A stretch of DNA of 44,023 nt from an uncultured Eubacteriales bacterium. GTDB lineage: Bacteria; Bacillota; Clostridia; Christensenellales; Aristaeellaceae. A program made the position numbers and the translations under genes. Below, one piece after another: positions 1,563 to 14,774 of this stretch (within the stretch, counting starts at the first letter, position 1; every line of letters begins with the position of its first letter). The notes beneath the pieces were generated by a model. The model was given only the letters and a program-made list of their open reading frames with translations. It searched no databases and had not been told where the DNA came from. The DNA lies in the NCBI GenBank assembly GCA_902801165.1, contig CADCHI010000034.1:1-44023 (forward strand), in the 5' to 3' direction.

Positions 1563-2639
1563 TTACTCGATCACGTTCTCCGTCTCGGCGTCGAACAGGT
1601 ACACGCTCTCCAGCGGAATGGAGAAGGTGATGCCCACGTCGGTGTCAGGCGTGTCGTGGGAATCCACCTTCAGTATGGCCTGGGTGTTCCCGGCGGTGAC
1701 GTACACATTGGTGTTGTCGCCCAGCATCTCCGTCAGCTCCACCTGGCAGGAGATGGGGTAGCCCTCGGGTGCTTCGCCCAGCACGATGGCCTCGGGGCGG
1801 AAGCCCAGCACGATTTCCTTGCCCTCGTAGCGGTCGATGCCGGCGTACTTCTTCTTCAGGTCCAATTGGTTGTTGCCGAAGGCCAGGCAGCCGTTCTTCA
1901 CCGTGCCGCGCACGAAGTTCATCGGCGGCTCACCGATGAAGCCCGCCACGAACACGTTCGCCGGCTTGTAGTACAGCTCGTAGGGCGTGCCGATCTGCTG
2001 GACATAGCCGTCCTTCATTACCACGATGCGGTCCGCCAGGGTCATGGCCTCGGTCTGGTCGTGGGTGACGTAGATGGTGGTCGCGCCGGTCTCCCGGTGG
2101 ATCTGGGCGATCTCATAGCGCATGGTCACGCGCTGCTTGGCGTCCAGGTTGGAAAGGGGCTCATCCATCAGGAAGATGCCCACCTTGCGGATGATGGCGC
2201 GGCCGATGGCGACGCGCTGCCGCTGGCCGCCGGAGAGCGCCCGGGGCAGTCGATCCAGGTACTCGGTGAGGCCCAGTATGCGGGCGGTGTTCTGCACCCG
2301 CTTTTCGATCACGTCTTCGTCCACGCCCTGCAGCGTCAGGCCGAAGGCGATGTTGTCGTACACCGTCATCTGGGGGTACAGCGCGTAGCTCTGGAAAACC
2401 ATGGCCACTTCGCGCTCCCGGGGGCCCAACTCATTGGCGCGCTTGCCGTTGATCAGGAATTCGCCGCCCGAGATGTCCTCCAGGCCGGCGATCATGCGCA
2501 GCGTGGTCGACTTGCCGCAGCCCGAGGGCCCTACAAATACAACAAATTCACCCTTTTCAATTTCGAGATTGAAGTTGTGCACCGCATGATAGCCGTTCGG
2601 GTAAATCTTGTTGATGTTCTTCAGCGTCAAATACGCCAT
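1563..2639 (-). CDS. msmX: Sugar ABC transporter ATPase, MsmX/UgpC type (second ATPase of the operon)
   Basis: This is the cytoplasmic ATP-hydrolysing subunit of a carbohydrate (CUT1) importer, 358 residues, the usual family length. The Walker A GPSGCGKST, signature LSGGQRQRVAIGRA, Walker B IFLMDEPLSNLDA and the switch region YVTHDQTEAM are all intact, so it should be active. A C-terminal regulatory beta domain (after about residue 240, GFRPEAIVLGE) is present. The start at 2639 has AGGAGG eight bases upstream. It is the last gene of the operon, next to the GH105 gene. B. subtilis MsmX powers several oligosaccharide importers, including pectin-derived ones, so this copy may serve other transporters too. 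It resembles canonical MsmX more than the ATPase at 6598-7671 does. Confidence 0.92.
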   Translation of the reverse strand: MAYLTLKNINKIYPNGYHAVHNFNLEIEKGEFVVFVGPSGCGKSTTLRMIAGLEDISGGEFLINGKRANELGPREREVAMVFQSYALYPQMTVYDNIAFGLTLQGVDEDVIEKRVQNTARILGLTEYLDRLPRALSGGQRQRVAIGRAIIRKVGIFLMDEPLSNLDAKQRVTMRYEIAQIHRETGATTIYVTHDQTEAMTLADRIVVMKDGYVQQIGTPYELYYKPANVFVAGFIGEPPMNFVRGTVKNGCLAFGNNQLDLKKKYAGIDRYEGKEIVLGFRPEAIVLGEAPEGYPISCQVELTEMLGDNTNVYVTAGNTQAILKVDSHDTPDTDVGITFSIPLESVYLFDAETENVIE

Positions 2640-2672
2640 AACGCCGCCTCCTTGAGTGATTCATGTTCCTGA

Positions 2673-3800
2673 TTATGCGTCCAGCCGCTTGATCTCCGTA
2701 TAGCACAGCACGAAGGGCGCGACGCCCTTGGCGTCGTTCTGCACGACGGGCTCTGAGATGTAGTAAGCGTAGGTGCCGTCCCGCCGCCGGTTGTCCTCGG
2801 GTCCAAGTCCCGCCACCAGGCAGATACCGCCCAGGGTCAATTCGCCGCCTTCAAAGGACAGGCGGTGCTTCACGATGCCGTCGAAGGTCTGACGGCCCCG
2901 ATCCGCGTAAACCGCGTCCAGCGCGCCCAGCCGCGCGCCCTTCAGCATGGCGTAGGCCAGCATGGCGCTGCCGCTGGATTCCAGGTAGTTGCCTGCCTCG
3001 CCGGGACGGTCGGGAACCTGGAAGTACATGGCCGTGTCCGGGTCGTGGAAGCGCCAGACGGCGTCCATCAGCTCGGCAAGGGTCTGGACGAGCTCGCCCC
3101 GGCCCGCGCCTTCGGGCACCAATTCGATGAGGTCCGCCAGCGCCACGGCAAACCAGCCGATGCTGCGCAGCCAGAAGCTCTTGGACAGGCCCGTGACCGG
3201 GTCGGCCCAGAAGGCGCTGCGGCTGGCGTCGTAGCCATGGTAGTACAGGCCGGTCCCCGCGTCGCGCATGTGTTCGCGCACGGTGCGCACCTGGCGCAGT
3301 ATGTCGCCGTAGTCTCCGCCGCCGAAGTGGCCCTCGTACAGCGCCAGGAAGGGCAGGGCCATGTAGATGCCGTCCAGCCACACCTGGTTGGGATAGATCT
3401 GCTTGTGCCAGAAGCTGCCCTCGTGGGTGCGGGGCTGGTCGTCCAGCGCCCGCTTCAGCGTCTCCGCCGCCAGGCGGTACTTATTCTCGCCAGTGCGCTC
3501 GTACAGCGGGAACAGCACGCGGCCTTCGTTGATGTCGTCCAGCGTGTGCTTTTCGGGCTTGAAGGTGCGCACGCTGCCGTCCTCGCCCACAAAGGCGTCG
3601 ATGAAGCGCCGGGAGAAGTCGAAGTAGCGCGCGTCGCCCGAGATCTTCGCCATCTCGATGAGCGCGGTGATCATGCAGCCGTCGATGTAGTTCCAGTTTG
3701 TGGGCTTGCCCTGGCGCACCTTTTCGATGTTCCAGGCCGTCCGTTCGGGGGAGGAGCGCTCGATCAGGCTGAATACATAGCGGTCGATGGCTTCGTACAT
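2673..3800 (-). CDS. yteR: GH105 unsaturated rhamnogalacturonyl/galacturonyl hydrolase, YteR-like
   Basis: The enzyme removes the unsaturated galacturonate left at the non-reducing end of oligosaccharides by pectate or rhamnogalacturonan lyases. It has 375 residues and no signal peptide, so it acts in the cytoplasm on imported sugars. The hallmark QVWLDGIYMALPFL is present. With the start at 3800 the catalytic aspartate in WLDG falls at residue 143, the same number as in B. subtilis YteR. Further (alpha/alpha)6-barrel motifs are RSIGWFAVALADL and YLESSGSAMLAYAMLKG. The start at 3800 is preferred over the ATG at 3806 because GGAGG lies only two bases before the latter. It sits between GH28 and the second ATPase in the operon. 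Confidence 0.9.
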   Translation of the reverse strand: MYEAIDRYVFSLIERSSPERTAWNIEKVRQGKPTNWNYIDGCMITALIEMAKISGDARYFDFSRRFIDAFVGEDGSVRTFKPEKHTLDDINEGRVLFPLYERTGENKYRLAAETLKRALDDQPRTHEGSFWHKQIYPNQVWLDGIYMALPFLALYEGHFGGGDYGDILRQVRTVREHMRDAGTGLYYHGYDASRSAFWADPVTGLSKSFWLRSIGWFAVALADLIELVPEGAGRGELVQTLAELMDAVWRFHDPDTAMYFQVPDRPGEAGNYLESSGSAMLAYAMLKGARLGALDAVYADRGRQTFDGIVKHRLSFEGGELTLGGICLVAGLGPEDNRRRDGTYAYYISEPVVQNDAKGVAPFVLCYTEIKRLDA

Positions 3801-3815
3801 GGGCATTTCCTCCGT

Positions 3816-5366
3816 TTATTCGGCGATGAGCTCGTCCACATTGCGGGTGACGACGCTCTCGCCGACCTGCCCCGTCACGGTCACATTCTTGAGCACCGCC
3901 CGGCGCACGTTTTCAAAGTACAGCCCCAGGCGGCAGCGCTCCGGCGCGTTCGTGAACATGGAGGGCACCGCGGGGCGGGCGTCCTCCGCAAAGTCGACGC
4001 GCACGTTCTCGAAGGTTATCTCGTCGATGGGGCGCTCCGGCAGCCCGTCGCAATAGCAGGCCGCGGCCTGGGCGTCCAGGCAATCCATGTTGGAAAAGCG
4101 GAATCGGCCCAGCCTGGGCGTGCGCTCGTCAATCGGCAGCGGCGCGCGGCCCTGCACATACTCCGAATCGCCGTCGGGGTCCACGCAGCGGTACCACATG
4201 TTCATCACGATGGGGGTCTTCACGCCCTCCATGCGGATGTTGTCAAATTCGATGCCGTCGATGTCGCAGCTTTGACCGCGGCCCCGGCGGGTCTTGATGC
4301 GTAAGCCCCGGTCCGTCTGCTTGAACAGGCACTGGCTGACGGACAGCTCCCGGATGCCGCCGGAGATCTCGCTGCCCAGCGTGACCGCTCCGTGGCCGAA
4401 GGCCATCAGGCAGTTGCGGATCGTGTGGCGGCTGGCGGCGGCGGGGCACAGCTTGTACAGGTCCAGCTTGCCGGACTTGATGGCGATGCAGTCGTCGCCC
4501 ACCGAGAAGCGGCAGCCCACGATGTCCACGCCGTCGCAGCACTCCGGGTCCAGCGCGTCGGTGTTCGGGCTGTCGTGCGGCGCGGAGACCGACACGTCCA
4601 GGAAGGAAATATCCCGGCTGTAGTAGGGGTGCAGGTGCCAGGAGGGGGAGTTGGCCACGCTCACGCCGTGCAGCGTCACGCCCTCGCAGCGGTTCAGGAA
4701 CATCACCCGGGGCCGGGCCACGGGATCTTCCTTGAAGGTCCGCCACCAATCGGCGTTGATGGCGTTGCCATCCAGCGTGCCCGGGCCGACGATGCGGATG
4801 TCCCGGGCGTATTCCGCGGTGATCAGCGAGGCGTACATGTCCCGGGGCAGGCCCTCAAACGCGCCGAAGTGCACCGCCTTGCCGCCGTCCAGGTCCTGCG
4901 CCATGGCGGGGAGCACGGGATAGGCGGCCTTGTCTGTCCGGCCCAGCAGCCGTGCGCCCTCCTGCAGCTCCAGGGTTATGTGGCTCTTCAGCAGGATCGG
5001 CCCGGTCAGGTAGTCGCCCTTCGGCACCACCAGCCGACCGCCCTCCGGCAGCACGCACACGGCCCGTTGGAGCGCCGCGGTGTCGTCCGTCACGCCGTCG
5101 CCCGCCGCGCCGAAGTCCCTTGCGCTGATGGCGCAGGTCTCCGCTGCCGTGTGCAGGGCGAGGGTCGCCTCCGAGCCGTCCATGCGCAGGGTCACGGCAT
5201 AGTCGGCGTCCGGCGCGAGACCGAACAGCGAGAACACGTTCCGGTCGTCCTCCAGCACCGGCTCGCCGTTCAGCAGCACGGCGTAGGGCGCGGGGGAATG
5301 GAAGGGGGCGCGGTTGTCCAGCTCAAAGCAGGCCGAGGTGGCGCCGATGTAGATATCGTGAAACAC
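3816..5366 (-). CDS. GH28 family polygalacturonase / rhamnogalacturonide hydrolase
   Basis: This is a right-handed beta-helix glycosidase of about 516 residues that hydrolyses galacturonic acid linkages in pectin fragments. An N-terminal fibronectin-like segment (to about residue 85) precedes the helix, which starts near the pectate-lyase-like DFGAAGDGVTDDTAALQ. The GH28 signature is complete: NTDALDPECCDGVDI, SVGDDCIAIKSG (catalytic Asp pair), GHGAVTLGSE (His) and RIKTRRGRG. There is no signal peptide, so it is intracellular and acts after uptake, as in other clostridial pectin loci. The start is probably the GTG at 5366, with AAAGGGAG upstream, seven bases after the stop of the previous gene; an upstream ATG at 5408 would overlap that gene by 35 bases. 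Exo- versus endo-activity and the exact substrate cannot be read from the sequence. Confidence 0.9.
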   Translation of the reverse strand: MFHDIYIGATSACFELDNRAPFHSPAPYAVLLNGEPVLEDDRNVFSLFGLAPDADYAVTLRMDGSEATLALHTAAETCAISARDFGAAGDGVTDDTAALQRAVCVLPEGGRLVVPKGDYLTGPILLKSHITLELQEGARLLGRTDKAAYPVLPAMAQDLDGGKAVHFGAFEGLPRDMYASLITAEYARDIRIVGPGTLDGNAINADWWRTFKEDPVARPRVMFLNRCEGVTLHGVSVANSPSWHLHPYYSRDISFLDVSVSAPHDSPNTDALDPECCDGVDIVGCRFSVGDDCIAIKSGKLDLYKLCPAAASRHTIRNCLMAFGHGAVTLGSEISGGIRELSVSQCLFKQTDRGLRIKTRRGRGQSCDIDGIEFDNIRMEGVKTPIVMNMWYRCVDPDGDSEYVQGRAPLPIDERTPRLGRFRFSNMDCLDAQAAACYCDGLPERPIDEITFENVRVDFAEDARPAVPSMFTNAPERCRLGLYFENVRRAVLKNVTVTGQVGESVVTRNVDELIAE

Positions 5367-5373
5367 GATGGAT

Positions 5374-6015
5374 TCAATCTCCCTTTGCGCCTGCGCTGCG
5401 CTTGGCATCCGCCAGCACCTGCTTCGCAGTGCGCTTGATTTTGATGAGCAGCGTGTCCCACGCTGCGGTGAATACGCCGAACAGTATCGGGCCCACGCCC
5501 AGCGGCGTGCCGCCGGCAGTGCCCAGCCCCAGCAGGACGGCGTTGACGACGTTGTAGGTCGTCACGACCAGGAACAGCAGCAGGTATGCGTACAGCACGT
5601 TCAGCGGCAGGGTATACAGCCCCTTGCCGGGGAACATCATCCAACGATCGTTCGCGCCGGGGGTCTTGGCATAGAAGCGGTACAGGTTGTTGGTCAGCAG
5701 GTCCGTCACCGCGCCCAGGGCCAGCCCCAGCACGACCAGCTGGTCCAGCCAGTGGTTCAGCGTGGTGCCCAGCCCCCACAGGAAGAAGAAGCAGGTCGCC
5801 CCGGCGAACCAGGCCTTGATCAGCAGCGCCTTCGCCGCGTCCGAGAGCTTCAGCTTCGGGCCGGAGCGGTACTTGCGCAGCTCCGCCTCGCTGACCTTCG
5901 GGGAGTTGGAGACGTCCGCATTCACGAGGTCGTCCACGGCCTTCAGGTTCAGCTTGTAGTAATCCGCCGCGGATTTCCGGGGCTCCTGGGGCGCGCCTTT
6001 CTTGTTTCGTGCCAT
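5374..6015 (-). CDS. Unrecognised membrane protein (213 aa) of the pectin transporter operon
   Basis: I do not recognise the family. The first 65 residues are hydrophilic and basic (MARNKKGAPQEPRK). They are followed by about four hydrophobic segments, near residues 68-85, 89-108, 135-158 and 164-190, and a basic tail (KIKRTAKQVLADAKRS). The protein is probably an integral membrane protein with a cytoplasmic N-domain. It is 15 bases downstream of another membrane protein gene and just upstream of GH28, so it is co-transcribed with the uptake genes. The ribosome site is weak, suggesting translational coupling. It could be an accessory subunit of the ABC transporter or a separate exporter or anchor; neither is proven. 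Confidence 0.75.
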   Translation of the reverse strand: MARNKKGAPQEPRKSAADYYKLNLKAVDDLVNADVSNSPKVSEAELRKYRSGPKLKLSDAAKALLIKAWFAGATCFFFLWGLGTTLNHWLDQLVVLGLALGAVTDLLTNNLYRFYAKTPGANDRWMMFPGKGLYTLPLNVLYAYLLLFLVVTTYNVVNAVLLGLGTAGGTPLGVGPILFGVFTAAWDTLLIKIKRTAKQVLADAKRSAGAKGD

Positions 6016-6030
6016 GGCTTGTCGCGCAGC

Positions 6031-6594
6031 TTACGCGTCCTCGCCGCTGATGTCGATCGCCGCCATGCCGCCGTTGTCGGCCACATCCACGTTGGTGTTG
6101 ATCTTCTTGAGCAGCTTGGAGTACACCGGCAGCAGCACCACCAGCGCCACGCCGATGATCAGGATCACCCGATGCACGGTCAGCATGTGGACCGCCGCGC
6201 TGATGTAGCTCTTGTCCGCGCTCACGGTGATGGGGTTCACCTCGCGGGTCAGCGCTTCGGTGATGCGGCCCTGGTAGAAGATGCCCGCATAGATGATGAT
6301 GCCCACCAGCACGAACATCAGCGCCAGCATGGGAACGTTCACCTTCTTGCGATGGGGGAAGGCGTTCATGAAGCACACCATCAGCAGTATCGAGAACAGC
6401 ATGGTGGCAAAGCCCGCCAGGCCCATGCCCGGCAGGTTGATGTAGGCCGTGGTGTCGGAGATCTTCGTCAGGTTCAGGGAATAGTACAAGAAGGCCAGCG
6501 CGAACGCGAGCAGGGCGATGGTCTGGGGCTTGCGCTTCAGCGCCACGACGCGCTTGCGGATAAACTCTTTAATGCCCTTCGGCTGGTATGCCAT
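6031..6594 (-). CDS. Unrecognised membrane protein (187 aa) of the pectin transporter operon
   Basis: I do not recognise the family. A basic N-terminus (residues 1-24, FIRKRVVALKRK) is followed by four predicted membrane segments near 25-42, 55-75, 88-106 and 138-160, and an acidic C-terminus (VDVADNGGMAAIDISGEDA). A soluble loop of about 30 residues lies between helices three and four. The start is three bases after the stop of the ATPase at 6598, so the two are translationally coupled. That tight link with the ATPase suggests a role in the same transporter complex, which is inference only. Confidence 0.75.
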   Translation of the reverse strand: MAYQPKGIKEFIRKRVVALKRKPQTIALLAFALAFLYYSLNLTKISDTTAYINLPGMGLAGFATMLFSILLMVCFMNAFPHRKKVNVPMLALMFVLVGIIIYAGIFYQGRITEALTREVNPITVSADKSYISAAVHMLTVHRVILIIGVALVVLLPVYSKLLKKINTNVDVADNGGMAAIDISGEDA

Positions 6595-6597
6595 GAC

Positions 6598-7671
6598 TCA
6601 TCGATCCCCTTTCCTGATGGCGTTGGTGGTTTCCTTGTCGAAGAAGTGCTTGCGCTTGAAGCCCAGCTGCACGATGTCTCCGTTCCTGTAGTTGCTCCAG
6701 CCGCGCAGCTTGGCGGTGATGCGCAGGTTATCGCCCATGTGGCCGTGGACCAGCGTGTTCATGCCCAGGTTTTCGTTGCTGAACACCTTTACGGCCAGGC
6801 TGCCGCCCTCGGCGATGTCCTCAGGCCGCACGCCCAGCGTGATCTCCTTGCGGTTGTAGTTTGCCAGGGTGGCCTTCTCCTCGTCGGAGAGCTGTACCTC
6901 GAAGCCCTTGCCCCGCAGCGCGCCGTCCTGGAAGGTGACGTCGAAGAAGTTCATCGGCGGCAGCCCTATGAAGCCGGCCACGAAGGTGTTGTTCGGGGAA
7001 TCGTACAGCTCCAGGGGCGTGCCGATCTGCTGCACGTGGCCCATGGACATGCACACGATGCGGTCCGCCAGAGTCAGTGCCTCGGTCTGGTCGTGGGTGA
7101 CGTACATCATCGTGGCGTTCAGACGCTTGTGCAGCAGCAGGATCTCCCGCCGGGTGGCGCCGCGCAGCTTGGCGTCCAGGTTGGAAAGGGGCTCGTCGAA
7201 CAGGAACACCTTGGGGTTCCTGACGATGGAGCGGCCCATGGCCACGCGCTGGCGCTGGCCGCCGGACAGCTGCGAGGGCTTCTTGTTCAGCTGGCTGGTG
7301 AGGCCGAGGATCTCCGCCGCGGCGAGGACCTTCTTGTGGATGACGTTCGGGTCTTCCTTGCGCAGCACCAGCGAAAACGCCATGTTCTCATAGATGGTCA
7401 TGTGGCCGTACAGGGCGTAGTTCTGGAACACCATGGCCATGTCGCGGTCCTTGGCCGGCACGCGGGTGATGTCCCGCCCGTCCAGCAGCAGGTTGCCGTT
7501 GGATATGTCCTCCAGGCCTGCCACCATGCGCAGCGTGGTGGATTTGCCGCAGCCGGAGGGACCGACCAGCACGATCAGCTCGCCATCCTTGATGTCGATG
7601 TTGAAATCGTACACGGCCTGCACGTTGTTGTCGTAGATTTTATCGATGTGATGTAAGCTCAGCTCTGCCAT
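6598..7671 (-). CDS. Sugar ABC transporter ATPase, UgpC/MsmX family (first ATPase of the operon)
   Basis: This is a 357-residue nucleotide-binding subunit for a CUT1 sugar importer. Walker A GPSGCGKST, signature LSGGQRQRVAMGRS, Walker B VFLFDEPLSNLDA and MMYVTHDQTEAL are intact. The C-terminal beta domain contains LGVRPEDIAEGG. It differs from the second ATPase throughout its C-terminal third and in unusual positions (KYGHMTIYENMAFSLVL-like region), so the two are not a recent duplication. AGGAGG precedes the start. It is sandwiched between unrecognised membrane proteins on both sides, with a 12-base gap upstream and a 3-base gap downstream. Two ATPases in one operon with only one permease pair is unusual, because this transporter class often borrows a single shared ATPase. 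Confidence 0.92.
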   Translation of the reverse strand: MAELSLHHIDKIYDNNVQAVYDFNIDIKDGELIVLVGPSGCGKSTTLRMVAGLEDISNGNLLLDGRDITRVPAKDRDMAMVFQNYALYGHMTIYENMAFSLVLRKEDPNVIHKKVLAAAEILGLTSQLNKKPSQLSGGQRQRVAMGRSIVRNPKVFLFDEPLSNLDAKLRGATRREILLLHKRLNATMMYVTHDQTEALTLADRIVCMSMGHVQQIGTPLELYDSPNNTFVAGFIGLPPMNFFDVTFQDGALRGKGFEVQLSDEEKATLANYNRKEITLGVRPEDIAEGGSLAVKVFSNENLGMNTLVHGHMGDNLRITAKLRGWSNYRNGDIVQLGFKRKHFFDKETTNAIRKGDR

Positions 7672-7683
7672 CGTGCGCCCTCC

Positions 7684-8169
7684 TTATGCCCCTTGACCTT
7701 CAAGACTGGCGATGTGCGCCTTCAGGGCGCGGCTCTTGACCAGGTTTACCGCCGCCGCCGCGAACAGGCAGGCAGCCGACGCGATGAGGTAGATGACGAC
7801 CCGGGTGAACTGCCCGTCGCTCATGGCCAGCAGCTCCGCGCCGCCGATCTTGACCGTGGTGGCGTGGGCGGGGATGGGCAATATGAATATCCTTGCGATC
7901 TGGATGATGCCGAGCACGCAGAGCACGTAGGAGAAGCCCTGCTTATAGTTCTTCACACCCTCGGAGGACAGGAAGGCCGCCAGCATGAACACCAGGTTGT
8001 AGAGGATCGAGGCGCCCATGATCAGGGTGTAGTAATAATCAACGTTGGTTTTATAGAGGCTGACGAAGTACAGCACGTCGAACACGATGGCCAGTATCGC
8101 CAGGCGGGAGGACGTGGTGTTCTTCGTAAAGCGCATGCGGTCGAGCCGAACGGATTGTTCATTCATCAT
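7684..8169 (-). CDS. Unrecognised four-helix membrane protein (161 aa) of the pectin transporter operon
   Basis: I do not recognise the family. Four hydrophobic segments are seen near residues 22-40, 46-68, 80-100 and 121-144, with a short hydrophilic N-terminus (MMNEQSVRLDRMRF) and a basic C-terminal tail. The ATG at 8169 overlaps the stop codon of the preceding gene, so the two are translationally coupled. The size and four-helix layout match the neighbour at 8166-8756 and the one at 6031-6594, although no clear sequence similarity is visible by eye. It lies directly upstream of the ATPase gene. A role as an accessory transporter subunit is inferred from position only. Confidence 0.75.
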   Translation of the reverse strand: MMNEQSVRLDRMRFTKNTTSSRLAILAIVFDVLYFVSLYKTNVDYYYTLIMGASILYNLVFMLAAFLSSEGVKNYKQGFSYVLCVLGIIQIARIFILPIPAHATTVKIGGAELLAMSDGQFTRVVIYLIASAACLFAAAAVNLVKSRALKAHIASLEGQGA

Positions 8170-8756
8170 GCCGACACCGCCTTTCCAGCTTCAATCAGTT
8201 TTCTCTCGTTCTTCATCAGCTGCGCCTTCCACACCGCGCAGATGACCAGCAGCACCGCCGCGATCAGCGCGAAGGCGAACACGCCCAGGTGGGCGTCGAA
8301 CCAGAAGGTCGAATCGGTGAAGGTGCCCGCCCGGGAAAGGCGGCGCTCCAGCTGTTCGAAATCCACGGTGGTCAGGTACTGTACCTTGAAGGCCGCGATC
8401 TGGCCGTGGGCCCAGAGGGCGGCGGCAACGTTGGCCACGACGTTGATGGCGATGGCCACGTAGTTGCCGATGTAGTATTTCCTGCGGGAATGGGTGTTTG
8501 TGACAAACAGCAGGCAAGCCGCAAGCAGCAGCCCGATGGCCACGCGCAGGAACGCGCGGTTGAAGCCCTGCATGTCATAGTAGATCATGGCGCCGGCAAC
8601 CTTGACCGAGGACGGGTCGTCGGGCATCGGAACCATGGTGTACAGCATGTCGTACAGGTCCGTCATCATGCCCAGCACGTACAAAAACACCAGCGCGCCG
8701 GCCGCGATGGCAAGAAAGCACGCGATGCGCTGTAGCTTTATCTGTTTCTTATACAT
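8166..8756 (-). CDS. Unrecognised four-helix membrane protein (196 aa) of the pectin transporter operon
   Basis: I do not recognise the family. Membrane segments lie near residues 11-32, 66-84, 95-115 and 157-178, with a loop of about 40 residues between helices three and four and a basic tail (KAQLMKNERKLIEAGK). The start at 8756 is chosen because GGGGGAAG lies just upstream; the open frame runs 65 codons further into the intergenic hairpin, which is not plausible coding. It is the first gene after the solute-binding protein and its 3' hairpin, and its stop overlaps the next start. The general shape is similar to the next gene, but identity is not evident. Confidence 0.75.
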   Translation of the reverse strand: MYKKQIKLQRIACFLAIAAGALVFLYVLGMMTDLYDMLYTMVPMPDDPSSVKVAGAMIYYDMQGFNRAFLRVAIGLLLAACLLFVTNTHSRRKYYIGNYVAIAINVVANVAAALWAHGQIAAFKVQYLTTVDFEQLERRLSRAGTFTDSTFWFDAHLGVFAFALIAAVLLVICAVWKAQLMKNERKLIEAGKAVSA

Positions 8757-8798
8757 GTCGAACTTCCCCCGATCAAATAAGTATGGGAATTGAGAGTG

Positions 8799-8858
8799 GA
8801 GAGCCGGGAGCGGAGCCCGGGCGGGAAATCCCCCCAGGGATTTCCCGCTCCCGCTCTC
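8799..8858 (-). other. Intercistronic stem-loop after the solute-binding protein gene
   Basis: An inner perfect 12-bp stem (8821-8832 with 8837-8848, four-base loop) is continued by an outer stem (8799-8810 with 8848-8858, one bulge). There is no T-run. Such a structure after a binding-protein gene usually protects the upstream mRNA and lowers downstream expression, giving excess binding protein. Confidence 0.7.
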
Positions 8859-8875: not shown

Positions 8876-10927
8876 TTACAGGCTGTTGTAGTAGTCCAGC
8901 AGGCGGAGCCAGGCGTCGCCCTTCAGCAGCAGGTAATCGAAGCCGGCCCAAGCGCCGTCCACGGTCTCAGCCGCCTCTTCGGGGCTGGTCATGCCGTCCA
9001 GGGTGAAGCCGTTCACGATGATGTCCACGAAGGCGTTCTCGCCGTCCTTGCTCAGGGAGAACTTGCCGTTGCTGGTCAGCTCGGTGTAGCTGTTCAGCTC
9101 GTCGTTTTCAACCTTGGTGTTGGGCAGCACGGTGGGCACGGAGGTGTACCAGGGATTCTCGGAGATGGCCAGCTCGGGGTGCTTGATGGTGCCCAGGCCG
9201 ATGGCCGTGGAGATGTGGGCCGCGCCCTCCTTGCCGACCTCGTGGGTGCACTGATACTCGAAGGCCTGGCTCTTGACGAAGGACAGGGTGGAGCCCAGGT
9301 ACATGCGGGCGTAGTTGGTGTAGTTGCCGTTGGCCTTCTCCCACAGCTCGGCGTAGGTGGCGTCGGCGATGACCGGCATCTCCTTGCCGTTGAACACGAA
9401 GGTCTCGTAGGAGCCGTCGTCCTTGGTCTTGATGAAGGCGTCGGGGCCGTAGCTCATCAGGATCTGGCCCTTTTCGGAGTAGGCGTAGTCGATCAGGGAC
9501 AGCGCGGCGTCCAGCTTGGCGGGGTCGGATTCGACGCCGGCCTTGGAGATGGCCCAGCCGTCGGTCTTGACGGAGCGCCAGGACTCGGTGAAGCGCATGT
9601 ACACGCCGTTCTCGTCGGTGCCGTCGTACCAGCGGGCCACGGGGGGCATGACCGCCATGTACTTCTCGCCTTCCTGCAGCTTGGTGGCGTTCATGATGGT
9701 CTGGGTCTGGTTGTAGTCATAGCTCATGAAGCCCAGGTCGTTCTCCAGGTAGGTGCCGCTGTTCTCCTCGGAGGCATCCAGGAACGCCTTGGAGATCAGG
9801 CCCTCCTGCGCCATGGCGTTCATGCGGCCCATGGCCTCGTAGGCAGCGACCTCAGCGCGGGCATCGTGCAGCTCGTCGTCAGCGCCGACATACAGGTAGT
9901 CCTGGCGGGACTCCATGCCGCGCACGCCGAACAGGTGGCCGGCCAGGCGGATCATATCCACGCGGCGCTGGTTGTTGGCCTCCTCGCGGGTGAACAGGCC
10001 CTGCACGGAATCGGTGCCGTTGAGGGTCTGGGGGTTGGCAACCACGCAGCGCAGCAGGGCGACCAACTCGTCGGCATCCCACGCAGCGTTCTGGCCGATG
10101 AACAGGTTGGAGCGCTCGGTGCCGTAGTATCCGCCATAGGCGGCATCGATGTAGGCGCGCAGCATGTTGACGGCCTCGACGCCGTTCATGGCGCCCTTCT
10201 CGTTCATGACGGCCACGATGTTGCCCGCGGCGTCATAGTTCTTGGTGACGATCTCGGTGGCAGTGCCATCGGCGGTCACGGTCTCGATCTCCACGGTGCC
10301 GGAAGTGGGCATGTAGGGCTCATAGACCGCGGCGGCCAGGTCGTTGCAGGCGTCGGCGGCGAACTCGCCCTCGCCGTCCAGCAGCTTCTGCACCCAGTCC
10401 ACGCGCATCAGGGGCATGCGCTCGATGTCGTTGACACCGTCGAAGTAGGGGCTGAAGTAGATGGCACCGGTGGAGGTGTTGCCGGTGATGGACAGGCGCA
10501 CGATGGGGTTGGCATCCAGGTAGGCCTGGAAGTTGGGCAGCTTGTCCATGTGCTCGGCCAGGTTGACCAGGCTGCCGGCCTCGCCGTACTCAGACAGCGT
10601 GGCGGCGGTGCCGCTGATCATGTCGACCTCGTTCAGGCGGTCCTTCCAGAACTCGAACTCCTTGTTGGCGCTGTTGCCCTGGTACTTGTCCTCGAACTTG
10701 ATGCCGAGGATGTTCTCCAGCTCCACCCAGGTGGGCTTCAGGTCGCCGGTGTTGTAGGTGTTGCCGTCGGCCAGCGTCACGCCGCTGCCCGCCGTCTCGG
10801 CGTCAAAGGCGATGCCGGTCTTGGTGCTGTTGTAGCCGGTGGCCATGCGCAGCACCGTGCCCTCAGCCATCGCGGCGCTGCACAGCAGCATCGCCAGGAC
10901 CAGCAGGATCGAAAGCAGTTTCTTCAT
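8876..10927 (-). CDS. Extracellular solute-binding protein of a CUT1-type oligosaccharide ABC importer (LplA/YtcQ-like)
   Basis: This is the secreted receptor that delivers the sugar to the permease pair. It has 683 residues, clearly longer than the 430-550 of typical LplA/YtcQ proteins. The signal peptide is MKKLLSILLVLAML with a likely cut after AMA before EG; the Cys at residue 16 is not in a good lipobox (LLC), so membrane anchoring is uncertain. The mature protein contains family-type segments such as LNEVDMISGTAATLSEYGE (a D-M-I stretch near the hinge) and, near the C-terminus, LSLIDYAYSEKGQILMSYGPD. AGGAGG precedes the start. It follows the two permease genes and precedes a strong stem-loop. 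The ligand is inferred from the GH28/GH105 neighbours to be a pectin-derived oligosaccharide. Confidence 0.88.
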   Translation of the reverse strand: MKKLLSILLVLAMLLCSAAMAEGTVLRMATGYNSTKTGIAFDAETAGSGVTLADGNTYNTGDLKPTWVELENILGIKFEDKYQGNSANKEFEFWKDRLNEVDMISGTAATLSEYGEAGSLVNLAEHMDKLPNFQAYLDANPIVRLSITGNTSTGAIYFSPYFDGVNDIERMPLMRVDWVQKLLDGEGEFAADACNDLAAAVYEPYMPTSGTVEIETVTADGTATEIVTKNYDAAGNIVAVMNEKGAMNGVEAVNMLRAYIDAAYGGYYGTERSNLFIGQNAAWDADELVALLRCVVANPQTLNGTDSVQGLFTREEANNQRRVDMIRLAGHLFGVRGMESRQDYLYVGADDELHDARAEVAAYEAMGRMNAMAQEGLISKAFLDASEENSGTYLENDLGFMSYDYNQTQTIMNATKLQEGEKYMAVMPPVARWYDGTDENGVYMRFTESWRSVKTDGWAISKAGVESDPAKLDAALSLIDYAYSEKGQILMSYGPDAFIKTKDDGSYETFVFNGKEMPVIADATYAELWEKANGNYTNYARMYLGSTLSFVKSQAFEYQCTHEVGKEGAAHISTAIGLGTIKHPELAISENPWYTSVPTVLPNTKVENDELNSYTELTSNGKFSLSKDGENAFVDIIVNGFTLDGMTSPEEAAETVDGAWAGFDYLLLKGDAWLRLLDYYNSL

Positions 10928-10951: not shown

Positions 10952-11842
10952 TTATTCCTTTACACCGCCGGCGTTGGTGCCTTTGGCAAAGTACTTCTGG
11001 ATAAAGGGGTAGATGATCAGGATCGGCACGATGGAGCACACGATCAGCGCGTAGATCACGGAATCCGAGGCGTAGACCTCGTTCCAACCCGCCATGGTTT
11101 CGGAGTTGGTGTAATCCTCCAGCGTCAGTCGAATGAAGACCTGAAGGGGATGCTCGTGGGAGTTGGAGATCATCTGGCGCGCCCAGAAATAGCCGTTCCA
11201 GCGGGAGATGGCGAAGAACAGCGCCACGGTGGCGATGGTCGACTTCGACATCGGTATGAACACCTTGGACAGCACGCCGAACTCGGTGGCGCCGTCCACG
11301 ATGGCGGCCTCCTCGATCTCGCTGGGCACGTTTTCAAAGGCGTTGCGCAGCAGGATGATGTTCATGGCCGCCATGCCCATGGCGATGACCACCAGCCACT
11401 TGTCGTCCATGATGCCCACGGAGTTGAACACCTTCTTGGTGGCCAGGTAGTTCAGGTACTGGGGCACGATGCCGGCGGAGAACCACATGGTGAACACCAG
11501 GTAGAAGTTGAAGAACTTGCGGAACAGCAGCCGCTTCTTGGACAGCGCGTAGGCGCCCAGAATGGCCACGCCCAGGGCCCACAGCGTGCCGTACACCGTC
11601 AAAAACAGCGTGTTGGAATAGGAATTCCAGAACATGTTGTCGTTGAACATGCGGCGGAAGGCGTCAAACTGCACGTCCTTGGGGAAGAGCACCACCTCGC
11701 CGTAGTCCACCGCGTGGCGGCCGCTGATGGAGGCCGACACCGCGTACACGAACGGGTACAGGCAGCCCAGGGCGAACACCGTCAAAAGCGTGTAGGCGAT
11801 GATCTTGAAGATCAGCTCAGAGGCTTCCAGTTTTCTTTTCAT
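10952..11842 (-). CDS. lplC: Sugar ABC transporter permease, LplC/YtcP type
   Basis: This is one of the two membrane-spanning subunits of the importer, 296 residues with six membrane segments. The cytoplasmic EAA loop that docks the ATPase is clear: EEAAIVDGATEFGVLSKVF followed by IPMSKSTIATVALF. The N-terminal YPFVYAVSASISGRHAVDYGEVVLFPK and the C-terminal PILIIYPFIQKYFAKGTNAGGVKE are typical of the YtcP/LplC branch used for rhamnogalacturonan and other complex oligosaccharides. The ribosome site is AGGAGGG. It starts 12 bases after the partner permease gene ends and sits 24 bases before the binding protein. Confidence 0.93.
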   Translation of the reverse strand: MKRKLEASELIFKIIAYTLLTVFALGCLYPFVYAVSASISGRHAVDYGEVVLFPKDVQFDAFRRMFNDNMFWNSYSNTLFLTVYGTLWALGVAILGAYALSKKRLLFRKFFNFYLVFTMWFSAGIVPQYLNYLATKKVFNSVGIMDDKWLVVIAMGMAAMNIILLRNAFENVPSEIEEAAIVDGATEFGVLSKVFIPMSKSTIATVALFFAISRWNGYFWARQMISNSHEHPLQVFIRLTLEDYTNSETMAGWNEVYASDSVIYALIVCSIVPILIIYPFIQKYFAKGTNAGGVKE

Positions 11843-11854
11843 GCCCAGCCCTCC

Positions 11855-12913
11855 TTAGTACAGCGACACGTTGCTCGCCTTGCGGGCCACCGTGTTCGCG
11901 CCGATGACCAGCAGCATGCCCACCACGTTGTTCATCATCTCCGCCGCGGAGGCGATGCCCTTCTGGGCGCCTGCCAGGCCGTAGCGCTGGGCGAAGGTGG
12001 AGACCACGTCGGCGGTCACGTAGGTGTTGTTGTTGTACAACAGCAGAACCTTTTCGTAGCCGATGTTCAAAAGCGAACCTATGCGCATGATCAGCATGAT
12101 GACGATGGTGGAGAGTATGCTGGGCAGCACCACGTAGCGCATCTGGGCCATCTTGCCCGCGCCGTCGATCTGCGCCGCCTCATAGCTGGTGGGGGAGATG
12201 GCGATGATGGCCGCGAAGAACACGATGCTGTCGTAGCCCGCCGTCTCCCAGATGCCGCTGATCTGGTAGATGCCGCGGAAGAAGTTGGGGTTGTTCAGAA
12301 GGCCCGAGTTGGCCATCTCGTTGGAGATCAGGCCGATGCGCGCCAGGAAGCGGGACACGATGCCCGCGCCGCTGGTCAGCGAGCCCTGCTTCACCAGCAT
12401 CATCACCAGCGAGGTCATGACGACGGTGGACATGAACTTGGGCAGGTAAGTGAGCACCTGGTACACGCTGCGCGCGATGTTGGAGCGCACCTCATTGAAG
12501 AACAGCGCCAGTATGATCGGCATGGGGAAGCCGAACAGCAGGCCGTAGAAGCTCAGCAGGAAGGTGTTCCTCAACGCGCGCCAGAACTCCAGGGACAGGC
12601 CGCCGGTGCCGCCGCCGACCAGGAGCGTCTTGAAGTAGGAGAAGCCGGCAAAGTACTGCTCGGACACCGACTTGACCTGGTCGCCCACCTTGAACGCGCC
12701 CAGCAGCTCGTACATGGGCAGGTAGCGCCAGAACAGGAAGACCAGGATCGTGGGCAGCAGCATCAAGTACAGACGCCAGTCCTTGAGGATCGTGCGCCCC
12801 ACGTGCAGCCAGTAGTGCTTTTCCACATCGTCGCGCACCATCTGTTCGGGGCTTTCGCGATAAGTGCCGCTGGCCTGATCGTAAATCAGAAAATCCGCTC
12901 CCTTATCTCTCAT
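11855..12913 (-). CDS. lplB: Sugar ABC transporter permease, LplB/YteP type
   Basis: This is the partner permease, about 352 residues. An N-terminal cytoplasmic extension of about 50 residues (MRDKGADFLIYDQ) precedes six membrane segments. The EAA loop reads SYEAAQIDGAGKMAQMRYV followed by LPSILSTIVIM. The end GANTVARKASNVSLY is the usual LplB terminus. The start at 12913 is supported by AGGAGG five bases upstream; the open frame extends further but would run deep into the preceding gene. The gene overlaps the upstream membrane protein gene by 11 bases, pointing to coupled translation. Confidence 0.92.
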   Translation of the reverse strand: MRDKGADFLIYDQASGTYRESPEQMVRDDVEKHYWLHVGRTILKDWRLYLMLLPTILVFLFWRYLPMYELLGAFKVGDQVKSVSEQYFAGFSYFKTLLVGGGTGGLSLEFWRALRNTFLLSFYGLLFGFPMPIILALFFNEVRSNIARSVYQVLTYLPKFMSTVVMTSLVMMLVKQGSLTSGAGIVSRFLARIGLISNEMANSGLLNNPNFFRGIYQISGIWETAGYDSIVFFAAIIAISPTSYEAAQIDGAGKMAQMRYVVLPSILSTIVIMLIMRIGSLLNIGYEKVLLLYNNNTYVTADVVSTFAQRYGLAGAQKGIASAAEMMNNVVGMLLVIGANTVARKASNVSLY

Positions 12914-13496
12914 AAAATCCTCCTCTTTCCTCTTCTTCCTGCCGGTTAAGCCTTTGCAGGTAGTGATTCTGTTCCTCAAACATGCCGTCCAGCCGACGGA
13001 CGATCCAGACCAGCACCAGCGTGAACAGCAGCGTGATCGCGTCGGTGGTGAAAAAGCCCAGCGCCGCCGCGACCGGTGAACCCAGGATCACGGAGACGAC
13101 GGCCCGGCCCAACTGCATCAGGAGCGTGACGCACAGCCCCAGCAGCAGGGATTTGCCCACGCTCTGGCGGATGCCCTCCGGGGAAAGCGCCTTGATCAGC
13201 GCCAGCGCCAAAAGTGAAAACAGGTTGCCCAGGATGTACACGGCGAAATGACCGGCGCGCGCCCCGGACACCAGGCAGAACACCGCGCCGCCCAGCGCGG
13301 CGTGCAGGCCTGCCCAGGGCCCCCAGCGCATCAGCACGATGGCCGTGATCGCGGGCGTCACCGACACGGTGTAGGGCTCGTTGGGGAACCAGCGGCGGGC
13401 GGCGACCGCCACCAGCGATTCGAATACCGCCAGCATGAGGGCGAACATTCCCAGGTCCATCGCCCGGTATTGCCCGATCGTCCGCTGTGGCCTCAA
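12903..13496 (-). CDS. Integral membrane protein, ECF S-component-like, first gene of the pectin operon
   Basis: About 197 residues with five or six membrane segments (first near residue 13) and a charged C-terminal tail (QRLNRQEEEERGGFYER). The arrangement, the TPAITAIVLMRWGPWAGLHAA-like segment and the small size recall substrate-binding S subunits of energy-coupling-factor importers, but I cannot name a family. The start is most likely the TTG at 13496: GGAGG lies seven bases upstream, whereas the ATG at 13538 has no ribosome site. It is the first gene after the near-consensus promoter and overlaps lplB by 11 bases. No ECF energising module is in the window, so an S-component role would need partners elsewhere; alternatively it assists the ABC transporter. 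Confidence 0.7.
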   Translation of the reverse strand: MRPQRTIGQYRAMDLGMFALMLAVFESLVAVAARRWFPNEPYTVSVTPAITAIVLMRWGPWAGLHAALGGAVFCLVSGARAGHFAVYILGNLFSLLALALIKALSPEGIRQSVGKSLLLGLCVTLLMQLGRAVVSVILGSPVAAALGFFTTDAITLLFTLVLVWIVRRLDGMFEEQNHYLQRLNRQEEEERGGFYER

Positions 13497-13637: not shown

Positions 13638-14774
13638 ATGGTGTTAGTCAGGAAATAGGGTGATAAGTCGGTCGAGGGAGTTCTTTTGGACAGTAAGAGT
13701 AGTACAATGGGATTATCAAGAGAGGAGATAATCCAAATGACTACTGACAATCGGTTGAAGTTGACACATCTGATCAAGAAACTGACAGACGAATCGGTGG
13801 AACAGTTGCTGGAAACGGCCAGCAAGCTGTTTGCAGCGAGTACAACCGCCCATCGGCCAGACTGCCCTTACTGCCAAAGCGGCAGCATCGTTAAGAACGG
13901 TCATAAATGCGGCAAGCAGGAGTATCGGTGCAAGGAATGCAGGAAAACCTTTGTGTCGACGACCAACACCCTGATGTCGAACTCGCATCAGCCGAGCGAG
14001 ACATGGGAGGAGTTGATTCAGGACACGATTTCGGGGGAGTCCATCAGCTATTCAGCCAAGCGACTGAGTATATCGCACGATTGCGCGTTTCACATGAGGC
14101 ACAAGTTCCTGATGTCCCTGGAAGACGTGCAAACCGAATACACAGTAAAACTCGGCGGCGTTTCCGAACTGGACGAGACCTTCGTTCTGGATTCCTACAA
14201 GGGCAAGAAATTGCCGGAGAACGTCAACCGAAAGCCGCGCAAGCACGGTGAAAGCGCCCAGAAAGCCGGACTTTCCAAGGAATATGTCTGCATCTGCACC
14301 GGAATCGAACGCAAAGGCGCCGCTATGGCACTGACGGTCAACCGTGCGAAGCCCTCCTCTCAGGAATTACAGGACGTATTCAGCGAACACGTTTCCTGCG
14401 ATACTTTAGCGTTGTGCGACGGTCTGCGTGGCTATGCCACGCTGGAAAAGACCACGGGTTGCAGCGTCAAAAACGTCCTGACCGAGCAGAACCACAGCTT
14501 CTTCAACCTCAACACTGTCAATAGTTTCCATTCCTTCATCAAGAGAAGGTATGCCTTCTATCGTGGCGTAGCAACCAAATACCTGAACCGCTATAATGCA
14601 CTGTTCGGGTTTGCCTTCCGCCAGATTGACGGTGCGTTCACCCGGTTGAAAAGCCTGCTGCTCAACGTTTCCATTGTCGACCGTTTCTACTCCATCAGGA
14701 ATACCGTCTCCTCTGGTCTTTTGGCCTTGTAAGACGGCTTGGGCTTCATCACCCCATTTCCTGACTAACACCAT
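13638..14774 (+). mobile_element. IS1595-family insertion sequence
   Basis: The element is about 1.14 kb with terminal inverted repeats of about 26 bp. The left end (from 13638, ATGGTGTTAGTCAGGAAAT...) and the reverse complement of the right end (to 14774) differ at one position. A single transposase gene fills it. I see no matching 8-bp target duplication next to the ends, so flanks have changed or the element arose by recombination. It sits just upstream of the pectin operon promoter and may have separated that operon from its regulator. Confidence 0.88.
13737..14732 (+). CDS. IS1595-family transposase (ISXO2-like DDE domain)
   Basis: The protein has 331 residues. An N-terminal zinc ribbon (CPYCQSG...CGKQEYRCKECRKTF) is followed by the ISXO2-like catalytic domain. 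Its acidic residues are probably in SELDETFV and LALCDGLRGYA, and the terminal motif is VNSFHSFIKRRYAFYRGVATKYL. The start at 13737 has AGGAG nine bases upstream; TTG at 13686 (after GAGGGAG) and ATG at 13707 are alternatives in the same frame. The gene is intact, so the element may still move. Codon use is less GC-rich than in the neighbours, in keeping with recent arrival. Confidence 0.93.
   Translation: MTTDNRLKLTHLIKKLTDESVEQLLETASKLFAASTTAHRPDCPYCQSGSIVKNGHKCGKQEYRCKECRKTFVSTTNTLMSNSHQPSETWEELIQDTISGESISYSAKRLSISHDCAFHMRHKFLMSLEDVQTEYTVKLGGVSELDETFVLDSYKGKKLPENVNRKPRKHGESAQKAGLSKEYVCICTGIERKGAAMALTVNRAKPSSQELQDVFSEHVSCDTLALCDGLRGYATLEKTTGCSVKNVLTEQNHSFFNLNTVNSFHSFIKRRYAFYRGVATKYLNRYNALFGFAFRQIDGAFTRLKSLLLNVSIVDRFYSIRNTVSSGLLAL

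Follow-up and report, generated by a model that had tools for sequence, protein, structure and literature searches.

The window analyzed here is the whole of contig CADCHI010000034.1, a stretch of 44,023 nucleotides (nt) from an uncultured bacterium of the Aristaeellaceae (class Clostridia), and it is one 44-kb contig of an assembly (GCA_902801165.1) of 3.5 Mb in 98 contigs. Its minus strand carries an operon for an ATP-binding cassette (ABC) importer, in which the genes for two permeases, a solute-binding protein (SBP), two ATPases and two putative pectin-degrading enzymes are interspersed with genes for five small membrane proteins, designated MEM0 to MEM4. These five genes accompany the importer in a conserved order across related genomes, and their products seem reasonably likely to be accessory subunits of it. 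An earlier note on this DNA had described four small membrane proteins in the order mem-mem-ATPase-mem-mem, and their order, lengths and ca. four hydrophobic segments each were borne out by the coordinates and hydropathy. All four genes are there, and a fifth, MEM0 (12903-13496), had been overlooked. The tight coupling attributed to them holds for the overlaps and for the gaps of 3 and 12 nt, with the exception of the MEM3-MEM4 gap, which at 15 nt falls outside the range of 3 to 12 that had been given. In the order of the operon, the genes are as follows.

MEM0, 12903..13496, minus strand: 197 amino acids (aa), 5 to 6 predicted transmembrane (TM) segments; TTG start behind GGAGG; first gene of the operon.
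PERM1, 11855..12913, minus strand: 352 aa, permease of the AlgM1/LplB type with an N-terminal extension and an intact EAA motif.
PERM2, 10952..11842, minus strand: 296 aa, permease of the AlgM2/LplC type; EAA motif intact.
SBP, 8876..10927, minus strand: 683 aa, solute-binding protein; Sec-type signal by eye, crude lipobox pattern unmatched.
MEM1, 8166..8756, minus strand: 196 aa, 4 predicted TM segments; cytoplasmic motif RR.YY..N.
MEM2, 7684..8169, minus strand: 161 aa, 4 predicted TM segments; cytoplasmic loop SEGVKNY; 4-nt overlap with MEM1.
ATP1, 6598..7671, minus strand: 357 aa, MalK/UgpC-type ATPase with OB domain; 12 nt behind MEM2.
MEM3, 6031..6594, minus strand: 187 aa, 4 predicted TM segments; N-terminal basic motif RK..V.LKR; 3 nt behind ATP1.
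MEM4, 5374..6015, minus strand: 213 aa, 4 predicted TM segments; 15 nt behind MEM3, with GH28 next.
GH28, 3816..5408, minus strand: Pfam Glyco_hydro_28 (E=1.2e-34); no signal peptide by eye.
GH105, 2673..3806, minus strand: GH105/GH88-type unsaturated uronyl hydrolase, Pfam Glyco_hydro_88 (E=4.8e-80); no signal peptide by eye.
ATP2, 1563..2639, minus strand: second MalK-type ATPase, of a lineage distinct from ATP1.

The open reading frames were called with a crude script, which took either the first start codon or the start closest to the one expected, and some neighbors came out merged, such as GH105 and ATP2 in locus L066. The start of PERM1 was taken as 12913, giving an 11-nt overlap with MEM0. 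The start of MEM0 agrees with that of most of 49 relatives (codons checked in part), and four MEM0 genes of family f14 begin further upstream. The true start of GH28 may be a GTG near 5366, like that of close relatives; the GH28 frames in L032, L035-L037 and L039-L041 begin 5 to 8 nt past MEM4. On the opposite strand, a gene at 13686-14732 begins ca. 190 nt upstream of MEM0. We take its product, by resemblance, to be an insertion-sequence transposase with a zinc ribbon, and the gene may lie in or near the operon promoter.

To follow the cassette across genomes we annotated 59 loci, including the window, from 15 records and further genomes, taking eight genes as the core. All eight were present in 49 loci, and in every one of them (49/49) order and strand were identical. 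Of the other ten, nine were cut by contig ends and one, L103, was divergent; it failed the BLAST-based calls for MEM1 to MEM4 only and was counted as divergent on the evidence of hidden Markov models. MEM0 was found upstream of PERM1 in every locus with enough room, except L103. In 18 further loci of one genus, taken from 26 matches there, the same order with all nine genes appeared 13 times, the remaining five being cut by contig ends. Conserved co-occurrence with the importer, which the earlier note had proposed to look for, thus held in all the full loci, and its absence was not seen. One cassette (L077, genome G054) has an SBP split in two frames and a MEM3 with an internal stop, as if it were decaying as a whole or affected by an assembly error.

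The same association is found when presence is scored by genome. Within the family, MEM3 was detected in 41 of 150 genomes (14 of 50 genera), MEM4 in 41, and SBP and MEM0 in 39 each. MEM3 and SBP occur together in 38 of the 150 (P=7e-31 assuming independent genomes, an assumption that is untrue). In the three genomes where MEM3 was detected and SBP was not, the cassette lies at a contig end; the one with SBP and without a MEM3 hit is G026, whose divergent cassette (L103) carries all four of MEM1 to MEM4. As for the 41 genomes with MEM3, 34 were used with long flanks, the window's own genome is represented by the window, three (G060, G108 and G146) came from other records, and G083, G135 and G142 were left out. 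Outside the family, the cassette was recovered in four loci of f14 and two of f18, both families of the same order, with GH28 and also GH105, and in families f67 and f91 of the same class (in f91 as two contig pieces), with GH28. Weak matches to MEM3 (G273, G256) and MEM4 (G473) were dropped, as there was no cassette at their loci.

The genes are tightly packed. MEM0 and PERM1 overlap in 36 of 49 loci and MEM1 and MEM2 in 48 of 55, and gaps of 30 nt or less separate MEM2 from ATP1 (55/56) and ATP1 from MEM3 (53/56). Comparison with six close relatives gave ratios of nonsynonymous to synonymous substitution (dN/dS) of 0.13 to 0.36 for MEM1 to MEM4 and 0.23 to 0.40 for MEM0, i.e., the substitutions are mostly synonymous, which in terms of sequence evolution shows that the MEM genes are under purifying selection and behave as real genes. 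Hydropathy averaged over the alignments predicts four TM segments in each of MEM1 to MEM4, and in our reading of the loop charges (positive-inside rule) both termini would be inside. The N-terminal region of MEM4 is placed on the cytoplasmic side, and several of its charged residues fall inside the predicted TM segments or at their edges. Near-invariant residues of MEM1 to MEM4 occupy 43 of 257 cytoplasmic and 49 of 336 TM columns and only 6 of 164 extracellular ones. Three motifs are constant among the main-type cassettes: MEM1 has RR.YY..N, MEM2 the loop SE..K.Y, and MEM3 RK..V.LKR. The median identity is 44 to 53% for the MEM proteins, 77 to 82% for the permeases, 79% for ATP1 and 71% for SBP. 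Distance correlations were computed with 42 loci, after removing those without all nine genes and some near-duplicates. In L039, MEM1 (7838-8428) is 55% identical to that of the window vs 74 to 97% for its neighbors and looks as if it had been swapped for another allele.

None of the five proteins could be assigned to a described family. MEM0 to MEM4 of the window gave nothing above the Pfam or NCBIfam cut-offs (MEM0 as a longer frame for NCBIfam) and no PHROGs or PADLOC match at E 0.01, in keeping with the earlier description of these proteins as unrecognised; the clear match to a named family that could have contradicted it did not appear in the libraries searched. Neither a signalling domain above the Pfam and NCBIfam cut-offs nor, for MEM1 to MEM4, a Pfam match to an ABC permease family was found. 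Scanning all the members of the MEM4, MEM2 and MEM0 alignments produced scattered weak matches in one or two members only, including a sub-threshold histidine-kinase transmembrane match in 1 of 32 MEM4 members (E=0.0016). Profile searches of the PDB gave none for MEM1, MEM2 and MEM3, one match at E=7.7 for MEM4, and a short match of MEM0 to EMC4 (E=0.0013) that we took as chance. DUF624 was absent from the Pfam matches of MEM1 to MEM4 (E up to 10) and of MEM0 (E up to 1), as well as from those obtained with the MEM2 and MEM4 alignments. Likewise, a Pfam search with 33 MEM0 members (E up to 1) listed no S family of energy-coupling factor (ECF) transporters; that MEM0 might be an ECF S component was an impression from its size and helix number, which the tests made do not support. 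We rejected the idea that MEM1 to MEM4 are paralogues of one another (hhalign probability of 1.4% or less in all six pairs, a test limited by the low alignment depth). A search of plasmids with MEM4 and of phages with MEM1 detected no relatives. A description of such accessory subunits was not found in the open-access literature searched, outside which most subscription journals lie.

The importer itself is of a much more familiar kind. PERM1 (residues 40-349) matches AlgM1, of the Sphingomonas alginate importer of solved structure, along residues 6-298 of 301 (E=1.3e-66), and PERM2 matches AlgM2 along residues 10-293 of 305 (E=6.1e-77); other permeases of known structure (SugA, SugB and MalG) are far weaker matches to either. 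The pair is thus homologous over its full length to the AlgM1-AlgM2/LplB-LplC type. The EAA motif, the coupling site to the ATPase, is kept in both permeases (EAAQIDGA in PERM1 and EEAAIVDGA in PERM2). ATP1 and ATP2 are both above the Pfam cut-offs for ABC_tran and OB_MalK, as expected of MalK-type ATPases, and ATP1 is just above the NCBIfam cut-off for the UgpC subfamily. The SBP has no Pfam match and resembles AlgQ1 weakly, over part of the chain only (E=2.7e-6). Judged by these similarities, the core is an AlgM1/AlgM2-like importer. In a tree with 20 ATP1 sequences, those of the main-type cassettes sampled from f1, f14, f18 and f67 form one clade, and ATP2 is a separate lineage. ATP2 was not found in the cassettes of f14 (four loci) and f18 (two loci), where ATP1 stands alone. 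PERM1 is, in addition, extended at its N-terminus by a conserved stretch (DFL.YD...PEQ.VRDDVEKH), which is present in 15 of the 18 cassettes sampled; ten paralogues from the window's own genome all lack it.

These paralogues provide an internal control. There are twelve AlgM1-type permease matches in the window's own genome and only the one in the window has MEM genes; MEM profiles gave nothing in regions of 12 to 20 kb around the other eleven. In seven of these regions (L123-L128 and L131) there is one long protein behind the permease pair, L129, L130 and L132 have shorter frames in the crude calls, and in L133 no permease pair is visible.

The neighboring enzymes point to the probable substrate, which we infer to be oligosaccharides of the pectin type. 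Both GH28 and GH105 lack a signal peptide by eye, and therefore they probably act inside the cell. Their presence is variable. In the interval between MEM4 and ATP2, both enzymes are present in 18 of 46 loci, 17 have GH105 only (including L066, moved by hand to this class because its frame was merged with ATP2), one has GH28 only and 10 have neither. These last ten still keep MEM genes within contig reach; in five of them (L049, L070, L075, L076 and L078), more distant homologues of GH28/GH105 occur in other parts of the fetched sequence, and in the other five there are none. The neighboring enzymes vary and MEM1 to MEM4 stay. Several other genes were seen around the cassettes. L047, L049, L069, L073 and L079 have, between MEM4 and ATP2, where others have GH28/GH105, an opposite-strand gene of 242 to 292 aa, whose start resembles what we take to be an AraC-type regulator with a cupin domain. 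L149 (3417-7480) has an alpha-amylase-type protein with CBM48 (GH13-like) and a GH31 behind ATP2, instead of GH28/GH105. Ahead of MEM0, several loci of one genus (L158, L159, L161, L163, L165 and L166) have a 265-aa gene; the one in L158 (17730-18527) is a short-chain dehydrogenase by Pfam, and our guess is that its product has a KduD-like role in uronate breakdown.

The divergent cassette L103 (G026, 1746-8842) seems to be dedicated to something else. Downstream there are proteins with DUF4962, Heparinase II/III-like and short-chain dehydrogenase domains, lyase-like proteins being found in place of GH28/GH105, so that by its gene content it is probably an importer for another polysaccharide. 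Its MEM1 to MEM4 are shorter, and its ATPase falls outside the ATP1 clade, on a long branch of unsure position. In its genus (45 genomes) MEM4 had no other match above 34% identity, and the 18 matches fetched there included no second cassette like it.

Taking all this together, the explanation that we favor, and the most likely of those put forward in the earlier note, is that one AlgM1M2-type importer for acidic pectin fragments has MEM0 to MEM4 as its dedicated accessory subunits, all integral to the membrane; we hold it with somewhat more than even confidence. The core would be formed by PERM1/PERM2, the AlgQ-like SBP and ATP1, joined by ATP2 in most loci, and would take up acidic, uronate-containing pectin oligosaccharides (of the rhamnogalacturonan type) to be cut by GH28 and GH105 in the cytoplasm. 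The MEM proteins would sit around the permease pair, touching the permease and ATP1 at the cytoplasmic face, as suggested by three features: the near-invariant residues are cytoplasmic or in TM segments and hardly outside, an ATPase gene lies between the MEM genes, and the PERM1 extension is missing in the paralogues. When the acidic chains are long or branched, the MEM proteins would probably serve to stabilize the permease or to gate it.

Several alternatives have to be weighed. MEM1 to MEM4 could be a separate complex powered by ATP1, as the earlier note had contemplated, with ATP2 or a shared MsmX-type ATPase driving PERM1/PERM2 and nothing but co-regulation between them. This would suit the location of ATP1 inside the MEM block and of ATP2 at the end of the operon, their distinct lineages, and the median gap of 109 nt between SBP and MEM1, the largest in the core. 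However, the six f14 and f18 cassettes hold ATP1 only, and therefore ATP1 must serve the permeases there unless an unlinked ATPase does. At least one of the accessory proteins, MEM0, is tied to the permease gene through the overlap of its own gene with PERM1; in the family sample, all MEM genes found without the importer lay at contig ends; and MEM1 to MEM4 resemble no Pfam ABC permease. We find a separate complex improbable. Still less probable is an organizing role, also considered before, in which the MEM proteins, as a membrane scaffold, would keep the cytoplasmic GH28 and GH105 next to the importer so that imported chains pass to them directly. The better-conserved cytoplasmic face, the long conserved cytoplasmic N-terminus of MEM4, whose gene abuts GH28, and the apparent lack of signal peptides in both enzymes are what one would expect of such a scaffold, and yet, of the 46 loci that have MEM4 and ATP2, the 10 with neither enzyme in between still keep the MEM genes (five of them with the distant homologues in other parts of the sequence), L103 has lyase-like proteins instead, and L149 has its GH13-like and GH31 genes behind ATP2.

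A role in sensing or regulating transport activity, instead of a structural one, would fit small, fast-evolving, membrane-embedded proteins with conserved cytoplasmic loops; nevertheless, no signalling domain passed a cut-off in the window proteins, the members scanned gave the one sub-threshold histidine-kinase match mentioned above, and five different proteins in a fixed order are much for a sensor. This we regard as quite unlikely. The least likely of all is that the MEM proteins anchor the SBP or make up for a missing lipid anchor. In its favor, the crude lipobox pattern matched in none of the 28 SBPs of the f1 loci listed (L048-L080). However, the pattern is present in 8 of the 9 closest relatives of the window (L033-L042), not in the window itself, and a lipobox-like cysteine was found in all eight SBPs of f14, f18, f67 and f91 loci, and all these cassettes carry MEM genes too. 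Three other binding proteins lie near family cassettes, two without a lipobox (L057 and L077) and one that matches (L054), and no second MEM set was called there; the extracellular loops are, moreover, the least conserved parts of the MEM proteins. We have therefore rejected the replacement of a lipid anchor. Lgt was present in the 15 genomes tested (15/15).

There are also data that weigh against the accessory-subunit explanation. Operon partners are not necessarily partners in a complex, and the MEM proteins do not seem to be needed to complete a basic importer, since the AlgM1M2 importer is described without them in the part of the source consulted (PMC5717064) and both permeases here keep the EAA motif. 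The MEM proteins diverge faster than expected for tightly packed core subunits. Their higher information per column on the cytoplasmic than on the extracellular side (P=1.3e-7) depends on sides taken from the predicted topology. L103 has no RR.YY..N loop in MEM1 and no MEM0, and the PERM1 extension is also missing there and weak in both f18 cassettes. In G036, a MEM0 beside a contig end is accompanied by no MEM3, MEM4 or SBP anywhere in the genome, for which we have no explanation other than their loss in the assembly. Finally, the distribution is narrow: MEM3 in 11 of 200 genomes of the order (among them the window's own, two from the family and two weak matches without cassette), MEM1 in 3 of 291 of the class, and MEM4 in 5 of 391 of the class and 2 of 398 of the phylum (both counts including the own genome and the weak G473 match). 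A bolder version, which we find possible and rather doubtful, is that of a new architectural class of ABC importers, with an AlgM1M2-type translocator that works only within a large membrane assembly, to which five auxiliary subunits contribute four to six helices each (ca. 21 extra), and with two different ATPases in most lineages and long or branched acidic chains of plant cell walls as substrates. L103 would then be its sister form for the other polysaccharide, with degradation genes that include the heparinase II/III-like protein.

In summary, the importer is of a known kind, the accessory membrane proteins that go with it form a conserved set of which we found no description, and their being subunits is, from the genomic evidence, likely albeit unproven. 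If true, some carbohydrate ABC importers have a much larger membrane part than two permeases, and five protein families of uncultured gut and rumen Clostridia would acquire testable functions.

Among known systems, DUF624 proteins are membrane proteins, and we presume that the DUF624 gene located beside yesU in Bacillus subtilis is of the YesL type. This gene, likewise in a rhamnogalacturonan region and adjoining yesU according to the section of the source seen (PMC6120924), means that the statement in the earlier note that the rhamnogalacturonan operons of B. subtilis have no such genes may be too strong; MEM0 to MEM4 have no DUF624 match. The importers YtcQP-YteP and YesOPQ of this bacterium consist of a binding protein and two permeases for rhamnogalacturonan/polygalacturonan oligomers and use the shared multipurpose ATPase MsmX, and their descriptions, in the passages available to us, name no counterpart of MEM0 to MEM4 (PMC5730181; PMC11466899). 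ECF transporters differ from the system described here, in which the ATPases are of the MalK/UgpC type and MEM0 lacks a Pfam ECF match. The closest systems are the alginate importer of Sphingomonas sp. A1 (AlgM1-AlgM2/AlgS-AlgS with AlgQ1/AlgQ2) and the glycosaminoglycan importer of Streptobacillus (Smon0121-0122/0120-0120), both reported, in the portion of the paper seen, as two transmembrane proteins with an ATPase homodimer and a binding protein (PMC5717064). With them our importer shares the permease pair and the MalK-type ATPase and, by inference, uronate-containing substrates that are cut inside the cell; its SBP bears a weak resemblance to AlgQ1. The described AlgM1-AlgM2/LplB-LplC composition, with two permeases only, is exceeded by five extra conserved membrane-protein genes coding for putative subunits; unlike the AlgM1M2 importer, the operon in these Clostridia conserves all five and, usually, a second ATPase.

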